A stretch of 14,108 nucleotides of DNA, from contig MU129400.1 of the NCBI GenBank assembly GCA_014904985.1, positions 4,259-18,366 of the forward strand, written 5' to 3'. The notes under the pieces were generated by a model that saw only the letters and a program-made list of their open reading frames with translations, had not been told where the DNA came from and did no database searches. The translations under genes and the position numbers were made by a program. This document shows, in pieces, positions 1-13,516 of this stretch. Source of the DNA: Hydnum rufescens UP504. Taxonomy: Eukaryota > Basidiomycota > Agaricomycetes > Cantharellales > Hydnaceae. Numbering within the stretch: the first letter of the stretch is position 1; every line of letters starts with the position of its first letter.

Positions 1-1557
1 TATAGATATCTTCCAATTTGATGTGTGGTCACTGACAGGTAGTGGATTGTTTGGTGACATTGATACATAGGATGTAAGTGTGGCTCTCCACCTTAATGCA
101 CCATCCATGGCTGACACATCACTGGATAACATTGGCAACCAAGAATGTGGGCTCCCTTATGATTTTGTCTGATTGTTGGTTGATCCATTTTTGGTGACAT
201 TAACCATCACATAGCTGGTGGGCAGCTTCTTGTACAATTTCATGCAGGATCACAGGCTGATACATCTATGGGTCAATGGGTGGTATTCACAATGTAGGAG
301 GTGAGTCTATCCCCCAATCATTAGGTGCTAGTTGATACAGTGTTTTCAATATCATCAACAATGTAGGATGTGAGTCTGGGTGCTCCCAGTTTGATGTGTG
401 GGTGCTGTCTGATATATCATTGGGTGGGGTTGATGAAATAGGAAGTAAGTCAATATCACCCACCATCCATGGGTGGATGTGGGACTGATACATTCATTGG
501 TGGCACTGACAACATAGAATGTAAGTCTGAGTTCCTTAGTATTCAATCAATGCTGGTTGGCTGATATAGATTTGGTGGCATTGACAATGTAGGCTGTAAG
601 TCTGGTTCTCTTCCAATGTAACACACAAATGTGGAGTGATATTTCTTTGTCTCATCTGGACAATGTAGGAAGTAAGCCTGAATCTCCTACAATTTAATGC
701 ATGGTCACTCTCTGATACATTGTTTGGTCTCATTCACAATGCAGCATGTAAGTTGGGATCTCCTTTAATTCAATGTGGGGTCACTGCATATATTCTTTGG
801 TGACATTAATAATGGAGAATGTAAGTTCTAATTGATACCTCCTTGATGCACAATCACTGGCTCATCTCTGGATGACTGTGACAACCTAGGCAGTAAGCCT
901 GGCTCCCTTTGAATTTAGTGGGTGGTGCTGGCTGATCCCATCAATGGTATCAACATTGTAGCTGGTGGGCTCAGGACCTCACAATTTGATGCGGGATTGC
1001 AGGCTGATTCATCATTTGGTGGCATTGACAATTTAGGAAGTGAGTTGCATTGCCCACCATTTGATATATGGGTTTTGGCTAATACATTCATTGCCTGGTA
1101 TTGAAAATGTAGAATGTATGTTGAGGTCTCTGGCAATTGAATGTATGCTCAGTGACTGACACAATCTTGGTGGCATGGACAATGTAAGGTGGTGAGTTTG
1201 TGCCTCTGACCACTCATGGGGTGGTACTTGGTTAAGGTATCTTGGGCAACATTTTAGTATGTAAGTCCAGATATCATATTGATTGAGGCATGGTTTCTGC
1301 CTGATTCATCTTTTGCATTGGCAACAAAGAGGGTAGGTCTGGAGGGTTCAATTCCATATACCACTGCTGGCTGATTTCTCTTGTGGGTGGTTTTGACAAC
1401 ATAGAAGGTAAGCTGGGATCTGTTAGAATTTGATGCAAGAGGCCTGATTCATGGATTGGTTGGTCACCTGAACACTATAGGATGTAAGTCCATATCACAT
1501 ACCCTCAGAAGAATGGTTAACTGTTGATACATCTTTGGGTTGACATTAACAATGTAG
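1..1557 (+). repeat. Diverged left flank of intron-like tandem array (about 21 units)
   Basis: About 21 tandem units of 69-83 bp run in from beyond the left edge; the window opens inside one. Unit-to-unit identity is low in the middle, but a core is recognisable each time: a CTGAT/CTAAT/CTGAC-like motif, a GGTGGCATTGACAA-like stretch, an AG (TAG, CAG, AAG or GAG), three bases, then GTAAGT, GTGAGT, GTAAGC, GTGGGC or similar. The interval from each GT to the next AG is 66-80 bp. The spacing AG-3-GT is exact in every unit although total unit length varies, so the junction is the conserved part rather than the period. Triplets here are more varied in the third base (GAT, AAT, CTG, GAG, GAA, GCT, CAT, GCA, GTG, TAT, AGG, AAG) than in the core. 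Confidence 0.9.
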
Positions 1558-4500
1558 GAAGTAAGTGCAGGTGTCTTAGAATTCAATGCATTGTGCCTTG
1601 CTGATTCATCTTTTTGGTGGCATTCACAACATAGGGTGTAAGTCTGGATGTCTTAGAATTTAATGCATTGTCCCCTGCTGATTCATCTTTTGGTGGCACT
1701 CACAACATAGCCTGTAAGTCTGGATGTCTTAGAGTTCAATGCACTGTCCCTTGCTGATTCATCTTTGGGTGGTATTCACAACATAGGGTGTAAGTCTGGA
1801 TGTCATAGAATTCAATGCATTGTCCCTTGCTGATTCATGTTTTGGTGGCATTCACAACATAGCTTGTAAGTCTGGATGTCATAGAATTCAATGTGTTGTC
1901 CCTTGCTGATTCATCATTTGGTGGCATTCACAACATAGGTTGTAAGTCTGGATGTCTGGGAATTCAATGCATTGTCCCTTGCTGATTCATGTTTTGGTGG
2001 CATTCACAACATAGCTTGTATGTCAGGATGTCATAGAATTCAATGCATTGTCCCTTTCTGAGACATCTTTTGGTGGCATTCACAACATAGCATGTAAGTC
2101 TGGATGTCATAGAATTCAATGCATTGTCCCTTGCTAATTCATGTTTTGGTGGTATTCACAACATAGGGTGTAAGTTGGGATGTCATAGAATTCAATGCAT
2201 TGTCCCTGTCTGACTCATCTTTTGGTGGCATTCAAAACATAGCATGTAATTCAGGATGCCATACAATTCAATGCATTTTCCCTTGCTGATTCATGTTTTG
2301 GTGGCATTCACAACATAGCATGTAAGTCTGGATGTCTTAGAATTCAATGCATTGTCCCTTGCTGATTCATCTTTTGGTGGCATTCACAACATAGATTGTA
2401 AGTCTGGATGTCTTAGAATTCAATGCATTGTCCCTTGTTGATTCATCTTTTGGTGCCATTCACAACACAGGCTGTATGTCTGGATGTCTTAGAATTCAAT
2501 GCATTGTCCCTGCCTGATTCATCTTTTGGTGGCATTCACAACATAGGGTGTAAGTCTGAATGTCTTAGAATTCAATGCATTGTCCCTTGCTGATTCATGT
2601 TTTGGTGGCATTCACAACATAGCTTGTAAGTCTGGATGTCATAGAATTCAATGCATTGTCCCCTGCTGATTCATCTTTTGGTGGCATTCACAACATAGCT
2701 GGTAAGTCTGGATGTCATAGAATTCAATGCATTATCCCTTGCTGATTCATAGTTTGGTGGCATACAACATAGAATGTAAGTCTGGATGTCATAGAATTCA
2801 ATGCATTGTCCCTTGCTGATTCATGTTTTGGTGGCATTCACAACATAGCATGTAAGTCTGGATGTCATAGAATTCAATGCATTGTCCCTTGCTGATTCAT
2901 CTTTTGATGGCATTTGCAACATAGGTTGTAAGTCTGGATGTCACAGAACTCAATGCATTGTCCCTTTCTGATTCATGTTTTGGTGGCATTTGCAACATAG
3001 CGTGTAAGTCTGGATATCTGTGAATTCAATGCATTGTCCCTTGCTGATTCATGTTTTGGTGGCATTCACAACATAGACTGTAAGTCTGGATGTCATAGAA
3101 TTCAATGCATTGTCCCTTGCTGATTCATGTTTTGGTGGCATTCACAACATAGCGTGTAAGTCTGGATGTCATAGAATTCAATGCATTGTCCCTTGCTGAT
3201 TCATGTTTTGGTGGCATTCACAATGCAGCATGTAAGTCTGGATGTCATAGAATTCAATGCATTGTCCCTTGCTGATTCATGTTTTGGTGGCATTCACAAT
3301 ATAGGATGTAAGTCTGGATGTCATTGAATTCAATGCATTGTCCCTTGCTGATTCATGTTTTGGTGGCATTCACAACATAGGATGCAAGTCTGGATGTCAT
3401 AGAATTCAATGCATTGTCCCTTGCTGATTCACGTTTTGGTGGCATTCACAATGCAGCATGTAAGTCAGGATGTCATAGAATTCAATGCATTGTCCCTTGC
3501 TGATTCACGTTTTGGTGGCATTCACAACATAGCATGTAAGTCAGGATGTCTTAGAATTCAATGCATTGTCCCTTGCTGATTCATGTTTTGGTGGCATTCA
3601 CAACATAGGATGCAAGTCTGGGTGTCGTAGAATTCAATGCATTGTCCCTTGCTGATTCATGTTTTGGTGGCATTCACAACATAGACTGTAAGTCTGGATG
3701 TCACAGAATTCAATGCATTGTCCCTTTCTGATTCATGTTTTGGTGGCATTCACAACATAGCATGTAAGTCTGGATGTCATAGAATTCAATGCATTGTCCC
3801 TTTCTGATTCATCTTTTGGGCACATTCACAACATAGATTGTAAGTCTGGATGTTATAGAATTCAATGCATTGTCCCTTTCTGAGACATCTTTTGGGTGCA
3901 TGCATGACATAGGTTGTAAGTCTGGATGTCATAGAATTCAATGCATTGTCCCTTGCTGATTCATTTTTTGGTGGCATTCACAACATAGTTTGTAAGTCTG
4001 GATGTCATAGAATTCAATGCATTGTCCCTTTCTGATTCATCTTTTGGTGGCATTCACAATATAGGATGTAAGTCTGGATGTCATTGAATTCAATGCATTG
4101 TCCCTTGCTGATTCATCTTTGGTGGCATTCACAACATAGGATGTAAGTCTGGATGTCATAGAATTCCATGCATTCTCCCTTGCTGATTCATGTTTTGGTG
4201 GCATTCACAACATAGCATGTAAGTCTGGATGTCATAGAATTCAATGCATTGTCCCTTGCTGATTCATCTTTTGGTGCCATTCACAACCTAGGTTGTAAGT
4301 CTGGATGTCATAGAATTCAATGCATTGTCCCTTTCTGAGACATCTTTTGGTGCCATTCACAACATAGCGTGTAAGTCTGGATGTCATAGAATTCAATGCA
4401 TTGTCCCTTGCTGATTCATGTTTTGGTGGCATTCACAACATAGGCTGTAAGTCTGGATGTCATAGAATTCAATGCATTGTCCCTTGCTGATTCATGTTTT

Positions 4501-5941
4501 GGTGGCATTCACAACATAGGATGCAAGTCTGGATGTCATAGAATTTAATGCATTGTCCTTTGCTGATTCATCATTTGGTGCCATTCACATCATAGGTTGT
4601 ATGTCTGGATATCATAGAATTCAATGCATTGTCCCTTGCTGATTCATGTTTTGGTGGCATTCACAACATAGGCTGTAAGTCTGGATGTCATAGGATTCAA
4701 TGCATTGTCCCTTGCTCATTCATTTTGTGGTGCCATTTACAACATAGGGTGTAAGTCTGGATGTCTTAGAATTCAATGCATTGTCCCTTGCTGATTCATC
4801 TTTTGGTGGCATTCACAACAAAGCATGTAAGTCTGGATGTCTTAGAATTCAATGCCTTGTCCTTTGCTAATTCATATTTTGGTGCCATTCACAATGTAGG
4901 TTGTGAGTCTGGATGTCTTAGAATTCAATGCCTTGTCCCTTTCTGATTCATATTTTGATGTCATTCACCACATAGGTTGTAAATCAGGATGTCATAGAAT
5001 TCAATGCATTGTCCCTTGCTGATTCATGTTTTGGTATCATTCACACCATAGGTTGTAAGTCAGGATGTCATAGAATTCAATGCATTGTCCCTTGCTGATT
5101 CATGTTTTGGTGGCATTCACAACATAGCACGTAAGTCAGGATGTCATAGAATTCAATGCATTGTCCCTTGCTGATTCATGTTTTGGTGGCATTCACAACA
5201 TAGAATGTAAGTCTGGATGTCATAGAATTCAATGCATTGTCCCTTGCTGATTCATTTTTTGATGCCATTCACAATATAGACTGTAAGTTGAAATTTCCTA
5301 GAATTTTGATCCACCATCTTCCCTGATCCATCTTTTGATGGCATTGACAATGTAGGAAGTAAGTCCTGACATCTTGGAACTTAATGTATCATGCCTTGCT
5401 CATTCCTCTTGTGGTGGCATTGACAATCCAGTCTGTGAGTCCAGATGTCTTAGACTTCAATACATCATTGCTTGCTCATGTCCTTCTTGGTGGTTTTGTC
5501 CCCATAGATGGTTAGTGCACACCTCCCACCATTTTATTATTGCTCTCTCCCAGATCTCCTTCTTGGCATCTACTACCCCATAGGATGTAAGTCCACATCT
5601 CCTACCCCTCATTGTATGGTCCCTGGCTCATACACATTTTTCTGGCATTTGTAATGTAGCTTGTGAGTCCCTAGATCTGTACAATGGAATGATATTCTAT
5701 TTCCCAATTGTCCTCTTCACATTTGTATTTTCCACAGGATGATGTAAGTTCATCTACTGTGCCAAAGCCAAATGAATCTGTACAATTGCAATCTATTCAA
5801 TGCTTGCCTTAATTCTGTCTGGTAAATATTGTCATTGTACACTTCAAACCTTACCCCTATCTCATGTAGGTCTCATTAGGTGCTCAACCCTGCAGGGGAT
5901 CAAGGCCAGTGTGCCCCTCCTCAAAGTGTTGGTCAGTTTAG
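71..5941 (+). CDS. Candidate microexon gene: ~76 one-codon exons between ~70-nt introns (5' end outside window)
   Basis: Hypothesis: each unit is an intron and the three bases between AG and GT are an exon. Exon starts: 71,144,215,298,367,442,518,593,669,745,818,890,962,1037,1113,1189,1258,1330,1405,1481,1558, then every 76 bp (2 bp less at 2773, 1 bp less at 4140) from 1635 to 5280, then 5356,5432,5508,5584,5660 and the 6-nt exon 5738. Each intron (66-80 nt, 73 in the core) has GT (GC at 3384, 3612, 4523), a CTGAT-like branch point about 29 nt before AG, and AG. The joined triplets have no stop in phase 0; phase 1 meets TGA whenever a GAN triplet follows NNT; phase 2 meets TGA at 2699/2773. 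Product unknown, no homology recognised, start not in window. Alternatives: a non-coding satellite with splice-like signals, or a recursively spliced large intron. Needs RNA evidence. Confidence 0.45.
1558..5282 (+). repeat. Homogeneous 76-bp tandem array (about 49 units)
   Basis: Forty-nine junctions at 1635-5282 recur every 76 bp, with only single-base length changes and one 2-bp deletion near 2764. Each unit contains GTAAGTCTGGATGTCATAG, then GAATTC, the 10-bp palindrome CAATGCATTG, TCCCTTGCTGATTCAT, TTTTGGTGGCATTCACAA and CATAG. EcoRI and NsiI-type sites therefore recur in nearly every unit. Differences between units are few (CATAG or CTTAG, TTGC or TTTC, CATGTTTT or CATCTTTT) except at the three bases between CATAG and GTAAGT, which differ between almost all neighbours. 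There are no long unique spacers, so this is not a CRISPR array. Homogeneity implies recent unequal exchange or gene conversion. Minus-strand frames in this stretch (for example 3786-3977, 4241-4432) are by-products of periodicity. Confidence 0.97.
5283..5743 (+). repeat. Diverged right flank of the array (6 units)
   Basis: After 5283 the 76-bp sequence decays quickly while the junctions at 5356, 5432, 5508, 5584, 5660 and 5738 stay in register (76-78 bp apart). The triplets are GAA, TCT, ATG, GAT, CTT and finally a doubled GATGAT. 3' sites are TAG or CAG; 5' sites are GTAAGT, GTGAGT or GTTAGT. The CATAG-GAT-GTAAGT core at 5581-5592 is intact although the preceding 60 bases share little with the core unit. 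This is the same behaviour as the left flank and suggests that the central units were amplified out of an older series. Confidence 0.85.
5744..5869 (+). other. Candidate last intron of the microexon gene
   Basis: After the six-base GATGAT a full GTAAGT opens at 5744. The next good 3' site is CATGTAG ending at 5869, preceded by pyrimidine-rich TTACCCCTATCTC. The segment is 126 nt, longer than the 66-80 nt of the array introns, and no longer resembles the repeat. Plausible but chosen by eye: other AG dinucleotides downstream (5878, 5894) could serve. Confidence 0.35.
5870..5941 (+). CDS. Candidate terminal exon of the microexon gene
   Basis: If the array is read in phase 0 and the intron 5744-5869 is removed, the frame continues for 23 codons from 5870 and stops at TAG 5939-5941. 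The peptide has three cysteines and several prolines and serines; no domain is recognisable. An open stretch of 23 codons has roughly a one-in-three chance of arising randomly, so this is a weak call that depends entirely on the splicing model. A longer gene with further exons to the right cannot be excluded. Confidence 0.22.
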   Translation, partial: VSLGAQPCRGSRPVCPSSKCWSV

Positions 5942-7007
5942 GTTTTCATTAACTTCCCAGCTTCAGGAAATCTAAGCATTCATTCCAGCGTCACCTGTCT
6001 ATCCCATTGAAGCCCAACATTCAATATCTGGTGTTTCTTTGTTGTCAGTGTTGAGATTGATTCTAAGTGCACAGGAGATTGCTTATCTTGGCTTGTTAAA
6101 CTAGTGGTCATTATTTGGATTCGAGGTGGGAGGGGTGCAGATCCATCTAATTCACACGATACAGAGCATACTGCTAGCTCTATCCAGGCTCAACTCACAG
6201 ATGGTGGAGATTTGCAAGGACATGGTGTATCCAATATTGCAAGCAGACTTGCAGGGATCATTGATGAATGTACAGCATTATAGGCATCATGTGCATGCAT
6301 GTATCAAAGTGATGTCCTCCCATGACATTGGGATCAATCCTTATCTCTGCCAGGCTTTTTCCCTCAAGTGGAGATCAGAAGCTGGAGGAATTGGTGATGG
6401 ACTGTAACAACATTGCATGTAATATGTCAAAGTTGAAGTATTGGAGATAGACATGAAGCCACACTGGGTGCTATGACAAATCTGTGGGATCTAAGCAACA
6501 GTGCAATTTACCCACCCACTTGGTTTAAATGTTGGGAGCTTACTCTATATTGAGGTGGAGGCAGCAACCTGATTAAATGAATGGGAATATTTTGGTGATA
6601 GTATGGCTGAGCACATTTGTTAAATGAAGGCACCAGGGTAATTATCTATAAGGAATTACCACTCTCTGTGTCAGCACAGCACTGCCATTGAGGCCACAAG
6701 CAAAACTAGATGTGAGATTAATATGTCAGCAGAATGGGTCTGCAGTGGATTCTGATCAGTATTCCAGGCTGGTCAGACAGTCTTAGGGGCCTTAAAAGGT
6801 ATGTCATTTTGATATCTGTATAGTGCCTGATAGGCTTGTATTATGTTTGATATCAAAAAGTGATCAAAAGAGTATTTGATAGCAGAAGAGTTAAGTTTTT
6901 GAGCTCAATTTGAGATCCACTTTGGAACTTGTAAAATTCTGCAATGTTTACTGTAGTGCAGACAAGACATTTTATTATGCAGAGCATTTACATGGTTAAA
7001 GGAAGTA
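5942..7007. other. Unassigned stretch, no recognised gene
   Basis: AT-rich sequence without repeats of the array type. The + strand has a 94-codon open frame from GTG 6126 to TAA 6405-6407 (no ATG at its start). The same frame continues with stops at 6420, 6474, 6492, 6570, 6621, 6639 and 6753. All could be C-to-T versions of CAA/CGA codons, but that number of stops is also what random DNA would give. The peptide resembles nothing I know. It could be a degraded gene or chance. Confidence 0.3.
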
Positions 7008-8440: not shown

Positions 8441-9200
8441 CTGGGGCCCCACTAGGGCCCAAATCCAAAGTTAAAGAGCAGTATCAATGCAATGGGTGTA
8501 ACAAAGTGCCTCCCAGTTCAGGAGGGCACCTGTTGTCATACTTGGACAAAGTGGAGTTGACAGGGGAGGGAGTAGGAATAGGGAGAAGAGGAGAAGGGGT
8601 AATCACACCACCCTTAGCACTGGCTTTGCCCTGGACACAGGAGAAAAGGATGCAAGGGAAGGGGAGTCATGATGAAAGGCATAAAGTAGTGACTGGCCAA
8701 GTGGCACAGTCACTACCTAAGGAGAGAGTGGGGGTCAGTGAGAGGTATGGATTATCCTACTCACTGATTTCCCAGCTAGGGTCCCAAGGCACAAGTCCAG
8801 AGCCAGGGAAAGGGCTAGTATTGATGGCTACTAGGGGCCAACTAGATATCCAGATAGAAGCAGAGGCAGAGGCAGAGTATCACAGTTTCTCACTAGGTGA
8901 CGAAGATCCAGGCAAAGGTTCACTTAATTAATATCGGCAACTGCTGTATATACATGACTTTTGAGTCCTAACTTAATTATGTAATACACTATATTACAAG
9001 TATCAATGCAATGGGGCCCAAAATGGGGCCCAAATGGGGCCCAAGTGGACACATTCAAACTGCCTGCACCAATGGGGCCCAAATGTGTGAACTTGTCCCA
9101 AATCCACAGTAGGACACACGAACTCAGATCTCTATTTTTTTTCTAAGTTAAACCAACCATAGTTTACAAAATACAAGATATTACATTCAAATAGAACAAT
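8441..9200. other. Unassigned stretch with a long open frame of doubtful meaning
   Basis: More GC-rich than the flanks. On the + strand a frame stays open from 8302 to 8931 (209 codons), but its first third is antisense to the copia RNase H, and the rest is Gly/Glu-rich with a short EAEAEAE run and no recognised domain. The minus strand is Pro/Ser-rich between stops. It may be an unrecognised inserted element or 3' flank of the KDZ element. The phrase AGTATCAATGCAATGGG occurs twice (about 8481 and 8999). Confidence 0.3.
9011..9083. repeat. Short GGGCCC-rich direct repeats
   Basis: ATGGGGCCCAA occurs three times head to tail at 9011-9044 and once more at 9072-9083. A related GGGGCCCC and AGGGCCCAAAT lie at 8442-8465. 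GGGCCC is a perfect palindrome. The repeats sit about 120-190 bp beyond the KDZ stop codon, so they may belong to the terminal region of that DNA transposon, but no terminal inverted repeat was identified. Confidence 0.6.
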
Positions 9201-11859
9201 TCATGCATCATCCCCAACTAACTCCTCAAGAGCATCAAGAGCAGCTAAGAATGCAATGTCTTGTGGCACAGGTGCATCTTCTAATTCCCCATTTTCATCA
9301 TCATCCGAGCTTGCAGCATCTGAGACCCCATCCACAGCCTCACCTGTCAGTGAGTTTGCCACAGGGGACACAGGCCCACACAGTATCTGAATCCTACCAT
9401 AACAAAGGGGAGGAGGCTGCTCAGGAAGATTCATCCAGCCAATCTGGCCATCACTCCCAAGCATTGCTGATGAATGCCTCTGCCAAGCCTCTACCAAATC
9501 ATGCAGGTGATGCAACTCTAGTAATGCAAAGAACTTCACCTCTGCATCTAGCAGAATGAGGCTAATTCAGTCAACCCCTATCATGACAGCCAATGTAGAT
9601 TACATACCACATGAAAGAGTATATGTGTGCCATGTGGCAGAACATTGGGTCATAAACCATGTATGTAAGTTAGAGAATTCAGCCTTGCAATGCTCCAGCT
9701 CCTGGCAGCAATTTAGAATCTCTTGGGCAGCTCATATCCCATCCCATACCCCCTTATCTCTAAGCCACACAGGTACCTCTCCATCAGGAAAGTTTGCAAG
9801 ATCCTCATGATGAGGTACTTGCCAGATATCTTCATCTACATCTAGCTTGTAGACAGATGAGGATATCTCTGGGGGATATAAGCATCTGCCACAACATTCC
9901 CCTTCCCCTGAAGCTTCATCATCTCCCTTCAGATCTCCTCATATTGCTTTAGAGCCCCTTGTACTCCAGAGACCTGGCTCTTCATTGCCTTTTCAACATG
10001 CTCCTTCATTTGGTGGTCAAGCTCACAGCCAGTATCTGCATGATCCAATCCTGCAAGTTTAAACTTCTGTGCTTGCAGTTTTATCAGAATTTGGTCTTGA
10101 ACAACACGTATATTGAGCTGTAGGTTCACCCACTTATCAGTCTTAAGGTGATCCAACTCTTTATGGGACATCTGATCAGAGAGATGCAGTTCCTCTGTCT
10201 TTTTCTTGATGTTACTCTCGATGCACTTTATACTTGACTGCATAGCCTTGATCTTTGCCCATAGCTCATCCTCCACCACCACAGTGCTGCTATCAGTTGC
10301 AAGCTCTCTCAGCTCATCCACTGTTTCCTTGAGATGGATCTGCAGGGATTGCACAGTCTGTGTCATGGAAAAGATGTGCTCAATTGCATGAGCTCCTTTG
10401 GTTTTCAACTGGCAGGGCATTGGTTTGCTTTGGAAAGCTCATTGTGACTTGAACTGATCCAGGAGGTATGAGATAGACTGCCCACCAAGCCTTGCCATCA
10501 CCTCTCCTTCCCACTTGTGAGCAGATAAAGTGCGATCATGCAGCCATTTCACCAGGCCCTGCTGCTGCAGTTCATCAATGTGCTCCACCTGGAGGTCAAT
10601 GATAAAGAGTCATTGGTGATAGCCCGTAACCCTTAGAGAGGGAATAAGTCTTCGGAGTTCACTCCAAAACCTCTCACAGCCTTCACCATCAGAAAGGCCC
10701 CAGATCTTCGACTTCCGAGGATGATACCATAGCTGGCACATCCATTGGTGGCCATATGCATGGAAGACCAAGACACCAAAGATGATGTGACTATGCCATT
10801 CAGGCATAAAGTTCCATTTTAGGAGACTTTGATGGATTTGACATGCAATGTCATACAATATCCCCATGGTCCACCATTCCGGCAACTCCTTGAAAAGAGC
10901 TGTGATGAGGGCAAATGCATAAAATTGTTTCTTGCCAGCTGTGCGCATGTTGGCAATGTAAAGGGCAATGTCATGGCGACACAGTAAGGCCATGAGCCTG
11001 GTATCATCAAACTGCTGGGTAGAAGCTTTAATGCGATTGCCATCCACTGCAATGAAAGAGTCACCACACATATCAAGAACTGAGTTCAGAACATTCATCT
11101 CAGGTTCCACTGCATCATCTTCACCTGGGACAGCTTGATCATCCTCCATCATCTCAGTTGCTTTTTGTTTTTGCCCTGAGTTGACATGGGTTTTTGTTGT
11201 TGGTCAGAGCTCATTAACATGGCCTTCCATCATATTGAGCTCTACTTGGGATAGCTCCACCATTCTTGGCGAAAAGATCTCAGGGTCTCTAGCTCTGGTT
11301 TTGCCTTTGAAGCCCTTCCACTGATCTTTGTCATGATTGCATTTGATTTGGAAGTTCGCATCAATACATGCTATGGTGCTGACACCTAGTCCACTGGTGT
11401 GACTTCCCCCAAAACAAAGGGGACACCAGGATTGCAAATAAATGCTTGGCCCATCTTGCACATGCCCCACAGAATTGTGCACATTAGTGTAGTTTTGAAA
11501 AGGTATTGGCATTGTTTCATCTAGCACTGGGTACATTGGGGGTCCTGCTGATGTTGGAGCTGCAGAGGGTAGAGAAGAAATTGAGGGCATTGAAGGCCCT
11601 GAGGACCCAAGGGATGTTGGGGCCCCAGAGGGCAGTGATGTCAAGGAAGTTGATGACACTGAGGGCACCAGTGAGGGGTCATGAAAGGAATCTATGATTT
11701 TCGCCATCTCCACATTGATGAGATGGACAAGGACTTGATAGTGCAACAAAGCATTAGCAAATCGCTGACAAAGTGAGTCTGCAGTGGTGAATTCATGGCC
11801 ACAAGCCTTGAGATACTTCATCATGGTGGCTGCCCATGCCCACTCATTGGGACCCATTG
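9201..11859 (-). pseudogene. KDZ (Kyakuja-Dileera-Zisupton) family transposase, 5'-truncated and nonsense-mutated
   Basis: From right to left the minus strand encodes an NEWAW...HYQVL segment, a Ser/Pro-rich linker, the CPLCFGG cysteine motif (about 11408-11427), CIDANFQ (Asp 11360-11362), then the core: VDGNRIKAS, FDDTRLMALLCRHD (near 11000), LYDIACQ, FHAYGHQWMCQLWYHPRK and LSDGEGCERFWSE (10657-10690). A coiled-coil-like Glu/Lys/Leu-rich part follows (9932-10400), then a C-terminal tail with ASSDDDENGELED. This is the basidiomycete CxC-KDZ transposase layout. One frame runs from 11859 to about 9856 with TGA at 11204, 10610, 10439 and 9929. A shift near 9850-9856 fits loss of one copy of a tandem GTCT, and another TGA lies at 9732. 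The LTR at 11860 removes the N-terminus. Inactive. Confidence 0.92.
9548..9607 (-). other. Predicted intron in the KDZ pseudogene
   Basis: On the minus strand GTATGT starts at 9607 and CTAG ends at 9548 (60 nt), with GTTGACTG as a possible branch point. Removing it joins ...TYTLSC to DAEVKFFALLEL in one frame and restores a continuous KDZ C-terminus, as expected for this family. The unspliced frame meets TGA within the segment. Confidence 0.65.
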
Positions 11860-12127
11860 TCAGGGTTTGCCTCTTACTCCAGTCAACTCCGGTCCACTCT
11901 GGATCACTCTGGTCCTTGTCCACCCACCTCCAGTTCTCTGCTTAGTTCCTTTGCCCAAGTCCACCTTGCTTCTGGTTTGACTCCAGTCCAACCCTATCTT
12001 GATTTCATTTCCCTTTCATTTCCCATTGCTTCCAGTTTGCCCCCTGGCTGAGTTCCTGTTCCTGTTCCTGTCCCCCTTGTAACCGCCCCCAGTTTAGTGA
12101 TCACTCCCCCATAGTATAGTCATCATG

Positions 12128-12276: not shown

Positions 12277-12495
12277 CGAGTACTTTCCAGTTGACTCTGT
12301 GAGCTTAAGGACTGCTGTGCTCATTTCCGCCTAGTCCCCTCTGGGCCGCTGGACTGCCTCTCCGTCCCCTCCTATCCTCGTTATCTCATCCTTGCCCGGA
12401 TTCTCCCGGACTTAGCCAGACTTACACTGGACTTAGTCGGAGTTATCTGTGTTTATATTTGTTTGGTGCTCTCGTCGCAGTGTGGCCCTGACAGA

Positions 12496-12506
12496 AGACC
12501 AAAGCT
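12496..12506 (+). promoter_or_regulatory. Primer-binding site for self-priming (AGACCAAAGCT)
   Basis: Located right after the LTR. It lacks the TGG that starts a tRNA-primed site, but pairs perfectly with 12162-12172. See the LTR entry and the corresponding finding. Confidence 0.65.
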
Positions 12507-12571
12507 CTCCCACGAGTCCACCATCTGGATTGCTTAGTATTGCCGATTTCCCTCCTACTCCTCATTCTGAA

Positions 12572-13516
12572 ATGTCCGACAGTGCTCCAGTAGCCATTAC
12601 CACTGACCACCTCCAACACCTCCTCACCCAACTCCAACAACAAAATGCTGCACTCTGTGAGGAGCTGGACAACATGCGGAACCAAGGGACGCATGTCGCT
12701 GGCTTTGTGTCGGCTGCAGTCCAGCAGACACTCCAACAGCAACCCCTGCCTACCCAATCCACTCGTGAGGCCAAGGGGGCTGACCCTGAACCATTCTCTG
12801 GTGATTGGAAGAAAATGGAGAGTTTCCTACACTCTGTCTGGCTGAACATTGCCCTCCAACCTAGAGTCTATCCAACAGAGTTGCACAAAATCCTGTACAC
12901 ACTCTCCTGGATGAAGGATGGAACTGCCAGAGCATGGGCAGAAAGTCTCTCCACCTCCTTCCTAGATCCAGAAACCCACAACCCATACGAGACCTTTGAA
13001 GGGTTCCTAGTTGCCTTTGAAAGCGCTTTTGGAGAACCGGACCGGGAGTTCACTGCACAATCCCAACTCCGGAATCTGAAACAAGGCAAGATGTCTGCTG
13101 AGGAATACACTGCGCACTTTGACGCCTTGGCAGGACGGACTGGATTTGGAGAGGAAGCATTGATTGATGCATATCAATGGGGCCTCAACAAAAGACTGCT
13201 GGAAAAAATGCACCTCAGTGATCTGCCAGAGACACTCGGAGGATGGCAGGACACAGCACGGCATCTGGATAACCTATATCTCCGGTTCCGACAAGCCATG
13301 TCCAGTACAACCCCATACACTCCGAGAAACCCCCCGACATCCACGGAGAAACCCTGGACAGCAGCACCCATCACTCCTAGACCGACCACACTCCCTCCTG
13401 CACCAACACCCTCCTCGTCGACTTCATTCACTCCCATGGATGTAGACTTGACTTGGAAATGAGAGGCATGACGGTGTTATAACTGTCAAGAGTTGGGACA
13501 CATCTCTCATGACTGT
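12572..13516 (+). pseudogene. gag: Retrotransposon Gag with zinc knuckle, two in-frame TGA codons
   Basis: Start chosen at ATG 12572 (MSDSAPVAI), not the upstream GTG 12449, which lies inside the LTR. Residues about 10-40 are Gln/Leu-rich and helical. Then comes the Ty3-type Gag domain (retrotrans_gag): EPFSGDWKKMESFL, TARAWAESL, F-x-x-F-x-x-AFGEPDREFTAQ, L-x-x-LKQGKMSAEEYTAHF and a YQWGL close to its end. A Pro/Thr/Ser-rich linker and FTPMDVDLTWK follow. TGA at 13460-13462 closes a 296-codon frame, but the same frame goes on past a second TGA (13469-13471) into CYNCQELGHISHDC, a CCHC zinc knuckle (13475-13516). Both TGAs are where CGA (Arg) fits and would give the usual basic run before the knuckle. 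Gag binds and packages element RNA in cytoplasmic particles. This copy is presumably dead. Confidence 0.93.

Follow-up and report, generated by a model that had tools for sequence, protein, structure and literature searches.

A gene whose inner exons appear to consist almost entirely of single codons was analysed in a stretch of 14,108 nucleotides (nt), hereafter the window, from the ectomycorrhizal hedgehog mushroom Hydnum rufescens UP504 (GenBank assembly GCA_014904985.1, contig MU129400.1, positions 4,259 to 18,366 of the forward strand). The window carries a long series of splice-acceptor/splice-donor junctions, and the exon between acceptor and donor is 3 nt long at every junction except one. 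With a probability of about 0.85, this array is the inner part of a coding gene that is spliced at one codon per 3-base exon and that encodes a GTPase-type protein with an insert diversified one residue at a time. Spliced one-codon exons are close to certain for the gene family to which the window belongs, and they are highly probable for the window gene, whose own splicing is judged from that of its paralogues. The fungal spliceosome thus very probably joins more than 70 consecutive 3-base exons, which is far past the supposed limits of exon size.

Junction series of the window

The junctions were parsed with the exon length left free between 1 and 12 nt and unpenalised. The parser gave 76 junctions, with 75 exons of 3 nt and one of 6 nt, and the AG-N3-GT series proposed in an initial annotation made from the letters alone is therefore real. 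The splice-site consensus described there was also recovered. The donors are GT in 73 cases and GC in 3, with GTAAGT in 52 and GTGAGT in 7, and the acceptors are TAG (65), CAG (6), AAG (4) and GAG (1). The 76 introns (GT/GC...AG) lie between 74 and 5895 on the forward strand; the 75 within the array measure 66-80 nt with a median of 73, and the last one is longer. A branch-like motif precedes most of the AGs, as claimed, and its strict form [CT]T[AG]A[CT] is present in 63 of the 76 introns at a median distance of 31 nt from the AG.

The diverged flank at 1-1560 keeps the spacing. When only 3-nt exons are counted, the chain in this flank is 20 long; 200 first-order Markov resamplings averaged 1.3 and never exceeded 4. 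By the same count the chains elsewhere were 1 on the reverse strand of the array and 3 (forward) and 2 (reverse) in the remaining window. With free exon length, no chain of 15 or more was found on the reverse strand of the window.

All parts of the gene lie on the forward strand. The older 5' part (71..1560, from 71-73 to 1558-1560) consists of 21 one-codon exons, DNLEDENAEHNALENVYRKDE, with a diverged intron after each, and a similar codon order is seen in 20 paralogues. The hypervariable run (1635..5282) holds 49 one-codon exons, 47 of them NNT, one CTG and one CAC, separated by near-identical introns with a period that is mostly 76; a tandem-repeat view of this core gives a 76-bp period, 49.5 copies and a 90% match. 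In this core the unit varies most at the two bases preceding the mostly invariant T; these are not conserved sites. The conserved 3' end (5356..5662) contributes the one-codon exons E, S, M, D and L, and the paralogues carry ESMDL or the related PEDL, SLDL or PSVL at the equivalent place. Next, at 5738..5743, comes GATGAT (DD), the one exon in the series with a length other than 3 nt. Since bases 1-70 are the last part of an intron, the series must already have begun before the window, where the sequence reads N.

Probable spliced paralogues and the GTPase-type gene family

The codons of one paralogous array, L010, were predicted from genomic DNA (...VYRRDGDLHHPQRHFLHGGGYFRGYNLHNHKFYVDDVGVGYVHIHHYHDGYLGLRRTNSHHHVDLGVTPSVL-DI) before a matching protein was found. 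A profile search with three predicted tails, that of L010 among them, returned P0107, a protein of 207 amino acids on a jgi contig of 983 bases. P0107, compared as protein and not as contig DNA, is identical to the L010 prediction in 74 of 74 comparable residues. The match covers 73 consecutive exons (72 of 3 nt and one of 6 nt) over 5,428 genomic bases. The other residues of P0107 number 133, of which 131 lie in ordinary downstream exons of L010 and two at exon joints. Since a contig of 983 bases is too small for the L010 introns, the tail in it is uninterrupted by introns, and the contig is likely RNA-derived. A retrocopy is the alternative source of such a contig. No intronless copy of the P0107 tail was found in the genome; the sole match (G000:C218:56625-56795) is a contiguous frame of 57 residues, 39% like the L010 tail (E 0.003) and with one stop, which is a chance likeness or an old intronless copy.

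P0107 also provides the homologues for the 3' end of the window gene. The equivalent of the DD exon, GACATT (DI), is joined in it and is directly followed by GIKACVPFLKLL, the homologue of a predicted 36-nt exon GIKASVPLLKVL in the window (5896..5931). A predicted 55-nt exon, RHLSIPLKPNIQYLVFLC plus one base (5989..6043), is homologous to the P0107 exon PHLPNPSHINIQYLVFIS. The predicted last exon, LVIIWIRGG...IIDECTAL with the stop TAG (6105..6283), is homologous to LVILWIRSG...RLAGILDDY, and a protein search of the genome also matches C476:10347-10538, which is the place of this last exon.

Joining through to ordinary 3' exons was seen in P0107 and in P0111 (1,448 bases). The latter reads NLDGEHHLLEEVYRKDE, then a different variable stretch and then PEDLDN-GSKACVPFLKLL. 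Its C-terminal piece matches the assembly at best at 73% over 60 amino acids, with 95% over 19 amino acids beside it, so the source is a missing locus or another species; its first residues read MTHHWMISTIK. Retention or mis-splicing was seen in the other contigs. P0028 (936 bases) matches L010 on the GTPase side at 91%, 98% and 96% in three blocks and at 74% in a gap-spanning fourth, and it was also compared with L034. It joins 33 codons, has three (T-P-Q) that are extra relative to L010, and ends in V-S-P-D-P-Y, which is precisely what the L010 intron behind the Y codon encodes when read through to its TGA. In P0105 and P0106 (931 and 1,186 bases, with an identical tail) 29 joined codons are followed by SRYHID. 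This corresponds to a splice into the AG of the donor (GTAAG|TCC) in a Y unit, as this unit stands in L016, L017, L023 and the window, and leads to a stop. P0108 (1,456 bases) joins 11 codons before its sequence diverges, probably by reading into the next intron; no intron matching this read-on was found among the fetched loci. Splicing at 3-nt exons is thus upheld in paralogue-derived contigs, and its fidelity is not, as several of them carry a retained intron or a mis-splice.

The genome of 63.2 Mb in 539 contigs was searched for further members. The core unit pattern occurred 170 times, with 0 occurrences of the reversed control, and the junction of the first exon gave 39 sites genome-wide against 0 for its control. 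Two of the 39 sites lie inside the L018 array and known members are missing from the list, which gives at least about 36 genes; this count is a lower bound, as L018 and L030 begin with ELYG and their first junction is unlisted. The loci were fetched as 20 regions, then 4, plus two small single pieces, and the arrays parsed from the 20 regions reached up to 101 junctions. A common gene plan emerged: ordinary GTPase exons come first, then a series of one-codon exons, about 35 of them, beginning ELYG, then a hypervariable run of about 6-60 more, a short conserved end and ordinary exons. The codons E-L-Y-G start the chain in the 17 loci parsed to the 5' end and in three more, two having an extra preceding exon, and they are followed by similar codons in shared order, ELYGCENDYEYKASDNLDHENAEHDELENVYGRDE and variants. 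The mostly NNT stretch is locus-specific, with about 6 codons in L016 and about 60 in L010. Arrays that could be followed to their 3' end finish with (V)ESMDL-DD or a related sequence, for example PEDL-DN. At both ends, 20 paralogues and the window have their codons in a similar order. In L025 (G000:C166:75000-84999), TGG (W) codons recur amid the NNT codons. No match to the unit was found in the viral contigs searched.

A distant paralogue, L033 (G000:C96:161150-167149, 1185-2289), has 16 junctions, with 15 one-codon exons, RWFLYSLEEVVWGGR, and one 6-nt exon (DY). Its introns are strongly diverged and it is without the hypervariable core, and the series is intact, which suggests that the one-codon architecture predates the core; L033 is perhaps near the ancestral state.

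The window itself holds the array and the C-terminus only, and the GTPase motifs were tested on its paralogues. Upstream of the E codon, 15 of the 17 loci have enough sequence for comparison, and in these the region aligns as one gene region. The upstream exons of L022 encode a GTPase with the P-loop GPANAGKTT, HDSGGFEAG and FTKLDG, and the hand-assembled L022 protein matches many Hydnum 'G domain-containing' proteins as well as proteins of other Agaricomycetes at 30-47% identity, with which the P-loop, DSxGFE and TKxD are common. Across 38 aligned proteins the columns of GxANAGKTT, FHDSxGFE and FTKxD (motifs G1, G3 and G4) are invariant or nearly so. The model of P0003, a protein of the GTPase side, has a pLDDT (predicted local distance difference test) of 79 and its structural matches are GTPases. 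Its best rows are immunity-related GTPases (IRGs), tied with others, and this likeness by fold in a predicted model is at most suggestive of an IRG relationship of the family. A sequence search against solved structures returned weak P-loop matches only. The Pfam scans of the hand-assembled protein, P0107, P0111, P0002 and P0001 gave no NACHT, NB-ARC or WD40-type repeats; sub-threshold rows of nSTAND_NTPase5 fell at the P-loop only, at about 12 bits against a cut-off of 34. In the protein search, every match with a named organism came from a basidiomycete, and no homology to the proteins of schistosome micro-exon genes was found.

Many paralogues begin with MW(K/T)SIRK, followed by the GTPase domain. 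The N-termini of P0012, P0024 and P0029 are rich in DEEVP/DEQVP repeats (TKKSP/TNKSP in P0029), with a copy number that varies between paralogues, and these N-terminal repeats are a second repeat region of the proteins. The annotated partial protein P0109, whose contig has 18,366 bases like that of the window, ends in GFRILM plus one residue, resembling the GTPase-side exon end found before the arrays. All 23 annotated family proteins examined lack the beginning of the tail, which marks a blind spot of gene annotation.

Codon variation, reading frame and rival explanations

The variation, Mantel and permutation analyses covered 22 loci (L010-L027, L030-L032 and the window); L028, which continues the L027 gene, and the duplicates L001-L009 were excluded, and L033 was looked at separately. 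Diversity was measured on 368 units in core-like context, using only chains with at least 6 such units. The mean pairwise difference within arrays was 0.66 at the first exon position, 0.71 at the second and 0.10 at the third, with intron edges at about 0.13; with four equally frequent bases the value could not exceed about 0.75. The 39 core-like units of the window gave 0.66, 0.72 and 0.10. Intron distances were compared for introns of exactly 73 nt. Among the 107 unit pairs with 0 of 73 intron differences, positions 1, 2 and 3 differed in 63%, 72% and 0.9%, respectively. With rising intron distance the third position climbs roughly in step and the first two stay flat. Codon positions 1 and 2 are thus nearly saturated, and the intron is homogenised where the codon is diversified. 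Dinucleotide sharing was compared for units that have T as third base and are flanked on either side by a 73-nt intron, and pairs with identical downstream introns shared the dinucleotide in 8 of 73 cases against 9.6 expected.

All but 22 of 392 units are NNT, with AGT 0 times and TGT twice, and the product is of low complexity and rich in H/L/G/Y/D. An NNT codon is never a stop and specifies 15 amino acids, and NNT mixtures are used in protein libraries for that property. Dinucleotide use differs among 12 arrays (permutation p 0.001), and no avoidance of identical neighbouring codons was seen (21 of 172 against 20.6 expected). The introns are star-like about the array consensus, with ratios of 1.75-1.91 in 6 arrays. 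In the four arrays tabled the mean intron distance is nearly flat with lag, so that neighbours are no more alike than distant units. Tree structure among units was not detected in 6 arrays, where 1 of 24 Mantel tests gave p<0.05 (L024, exon against upstream intron half, 0.041), and no consistent correlation was found between intron halves or across exons.

The reading frame was analysed on 30 chains from the 22 loci, which contain 1,432 exons of 3 nt with one stop, 49 exons of 6 nt and 4 of 9 nt. A looser parser had given apparent TAA/TGA exons; these came from an AAG|TAA site 4 bases past the junction, and the scored parser left the one stop. With L017, L019, L020 and L030 excluded, stops numbered 1 in 1,237 codons for phase 0, 5 in 1,214 for phase 1 and 252 in 1,214 for phase 2; no phase-1 stops occur in the window. 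Phase 0 is settled by the P0107 match. On the opposite strand with free exon length, regular chains, mostly AG-N8-GT, were obtained in L015, L017, L019, L021, L024 and L030 (31 of 33 exons of 8 nt in L019). These series are probably a by-product of the repeat, and since reverse strands of some arrays give regular chains as well, the periodicity of a repeat proves nothing by itself.

Several observations weigh against the coding interpretation or restrict it. No transcript that stems from the window gene was found, and the jgi contigs are taken as RNA from their size and continuity, as they carry no source label. The retention in P0028 and probably P0108 and the mis-splice in P0105/P0106 mean that much of the RNA may not yield full protein. 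The lone stop among the 3-nt exons is a TAG in the irregular part of L015, and 32 of the 49 6-nt exons contain a stop, all in L017, L019, L020 and L030. L020 and L030 show exons of 2 nt, located at the variable site of otherwise near-identical units; the 6-nt stop exons of the four loci probably stand for such 2-nt exons, and their position leads to an unproven reading as deletions in the assembly consensus. Under free length the 3-nt exons are 64 of 78 in L018, 84 of 96 in L024 and 79 of 90 in L031. The stop counts, which had been expected to point to phase 0 alone, exclude phase 2 and hardly separate phase 0 from phase 1. Pairs at some intermediate intron distances share the dinucleotide slightly in excess (at 6 differences, 51 against 37.9). 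In the 5' part, exon positions 1, 2 and 3 differ at 0.245, 0.188 and 0.147, against 0.178 in intron interiors (6,404 aligned unit pairs), with 2,385 nonsynonymous and 257 synonymous codon changes. Exon sites there differ about as much as introns, and purifying selection is not seen on average; such selection on the 5' codons had been expected and was not borne out by the paralogue comparison. The conservation of ELYG is no test, because the 20 genes were chosen by it; the core-family chains that reach the 5' end all begin with ELYG in the parsed set. The initial annotation had argued that selection has preserved the splicing of 3-nt symmetric exons. That the exons are genuine is supported by a family of at least about 36 loci, one stop in 1,432 exons and P0107; simple selective preservation does not hold, as the middle codons are diversified.

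The diversification is best attributed, with some confidence, to selection acting mainly together with concerted evolution. The positions that vary are the two that set the amino acid, and the third, which as T or C does not affect it, tracks the intron; this is the pattern diversifying selection would give, and introns that stay alike are the pattern of concerted evolution. Under this explanation concerted evolution would hold the introns near one consensus, diversifying selection would keep the two amino-acid-setting bases variable, and the T would make each variant a sense codon. Splicing would proceed by intron definition and sequentially, because an exon of 3 nt should be too short for both splice-site complexes to sit on it together. 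A 5'-to-3' order would fit P0028 and probably P0108, in which the upstream exons are spliced and the next intron is retained. Units would be gained or lost in whole one-codon steps, as the three extra codons of P0028, a near-identical homologue of the L010 gene, may illustrate. The insert may serve in self/non-self or biotic-partner recognition, as in fungal repeat genes of high internal conservation; this putative role is drawn by analogy and is held tentatively.

Selection would need great speed to saturate two bases beside 73 identical ones, and this makes a targeted process a serious rival, in which a mechanism rewrites or adds the two bases between the AG and the T and copies the rest faithfully. 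The equal variability of positions 1 and 2 at zero intron difference and in distant pairs, the dinucleotide sharing at chance level beside identical downstream introns and the star-like introns all favour such programmed diversification. It is nevertheless considered rather unlikely, since the variation is confined to the amino-acid-changing positions and spares the silent third, a pattern for which selection needs no machine precise to two bases. Array-specific and skewed dinucleotide use and the slight excess of shared dinucleotides also speak against it, and no enzyme or template was identified, none having been looked for. A eukaryotic diversity generator, in which the genome rewrites two bases per unit into a stop-proof NNT library and copies the introns faithfully, is accordingly given the same low rating. 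If true, a GTPase-type receptor could change the residues of its recognition peptide singly and make the peptide longer or shorter in steps of one amino acid, and mutation targeted to two bases would amount to a novel form of programmed diversification for a eukaryote.

A neutral ratchet, by which frame- and splice-neutral units pile up without function and the codons are noise, would account for the lack of overall purifying selection in the 5' exons, the imperfect splicing and the low-complexity product. Neutral sites should track the introns and position 3, whereas positions 1 and 2 are already close to saturation where the introns do not differ at all; furthermore, YxY is kept in 20 of the 20 genes alignable there, against 0.178 differences per site in intron interiors. 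The ratchet is for these reasons judged improbable. Still less credit is given to an introner-type origin, in which a mobile intron family was inserted repeatedly and the codons are leftovers. The star-like introns and the missing neighbour effect in the four arrays tabled agree with it, but insertion at every third base in constant phase with T last is unexpected, and the diverged 5' units fit old tandem duplication. A non-coding minisatellite with a merely intron-like unit would be in accordance with the 76-bp periodicity of the core and the regular reverse-strand chains of some arrays. It has practically no standing: the series persists in diverged units beyond the core, the codon order recurs in the paralogues, and in a short contig the codons follow one another without interruption. 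Both the minisatellite and a chance origin were rejected after testing; for L010 the minisatellite is refuted if P0107 is RNA.

Known systems and neighbouring features

The comparisons with published systems refer to what parts of the cited papers state. The micro-exon genes (MEGs) of schistosomes, which the initial annotation had named as the nearest idea, have short symmetric exons of up to 36 bp, which preserve the reading frame, and variable products (PMC8293314). The mostly short symmetric exons are a common feature, as 75 of the 76 window exons are 3 nt and one is 6 nt. The Hydnum genes differ in having one-codon exons in runs of about 45-100 (most loci parsed to both ends) within a fungal GTPase-type gene, and in that their variation is genomic, at the exon itself, and is not shown to come from exon choice. 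In the HNWD genes of Podospora (het-d/het-e WD40 repeats), concerted evolution keeps the repeats near-identical and diversifying selection acts on their hypervariable positions (PMC12222747). Near-identical units with hypervariable codons are found in both systems. In Hydnum, however, the constant part of the repeat is a removed intron and not protein, so each unit yields only the variable residue, and the N-terminal part is a GTPase domain, with no NLR domain found in the Pfam scans. The HYP effectors of Globodera have a central hypervariable domain (HVD) between conserved ends, for which a locus-specific, frame-aware diversification (HVD editing) was proposed (PMC11228951); that domain is a single exon of shuffled short motifs, whereas the Hydnum insert is made of dozens of one-codon exons with single-codon variation. 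Exons of 1 nt are described in Arabidopsis APC11, where intron definition with recursive splicing is discussed (PMC4674806), and in Fusarium CYP621A (PMC12940212). Those are single tiny exons in ordinary genes, unlike the up to 101 in succession in Hydnum. No description of one-codon exon arrays was found among the matches listed in the open-licence literature, searched by titles and abstract starts, with subscription papers and preprints outside the scope.

A gene can thus keep the constant part of a repeat out of the protein by placing it in an intron and deliver the variable residue alone, and the family offers a direct test system for intron definition, splicing order and the evolution of hypervariable proteins.

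The rest of the window carries a KDZ transposase fragment on the reverse strand (10610-11203; PF18758, E 1e-46), and the adjoining reverse-strand frame at 11204-11941, which has no Pfam match, may belong to the same element. A Ty3-type gag (12437-13462, forward strand; PF03732, PF19259) is probably part of a Ty3 element cut by the end of the window. An 11-bp tandem repeat, AATGGGGCCCA, occurs in about 3.5 copies at 9010-9048.

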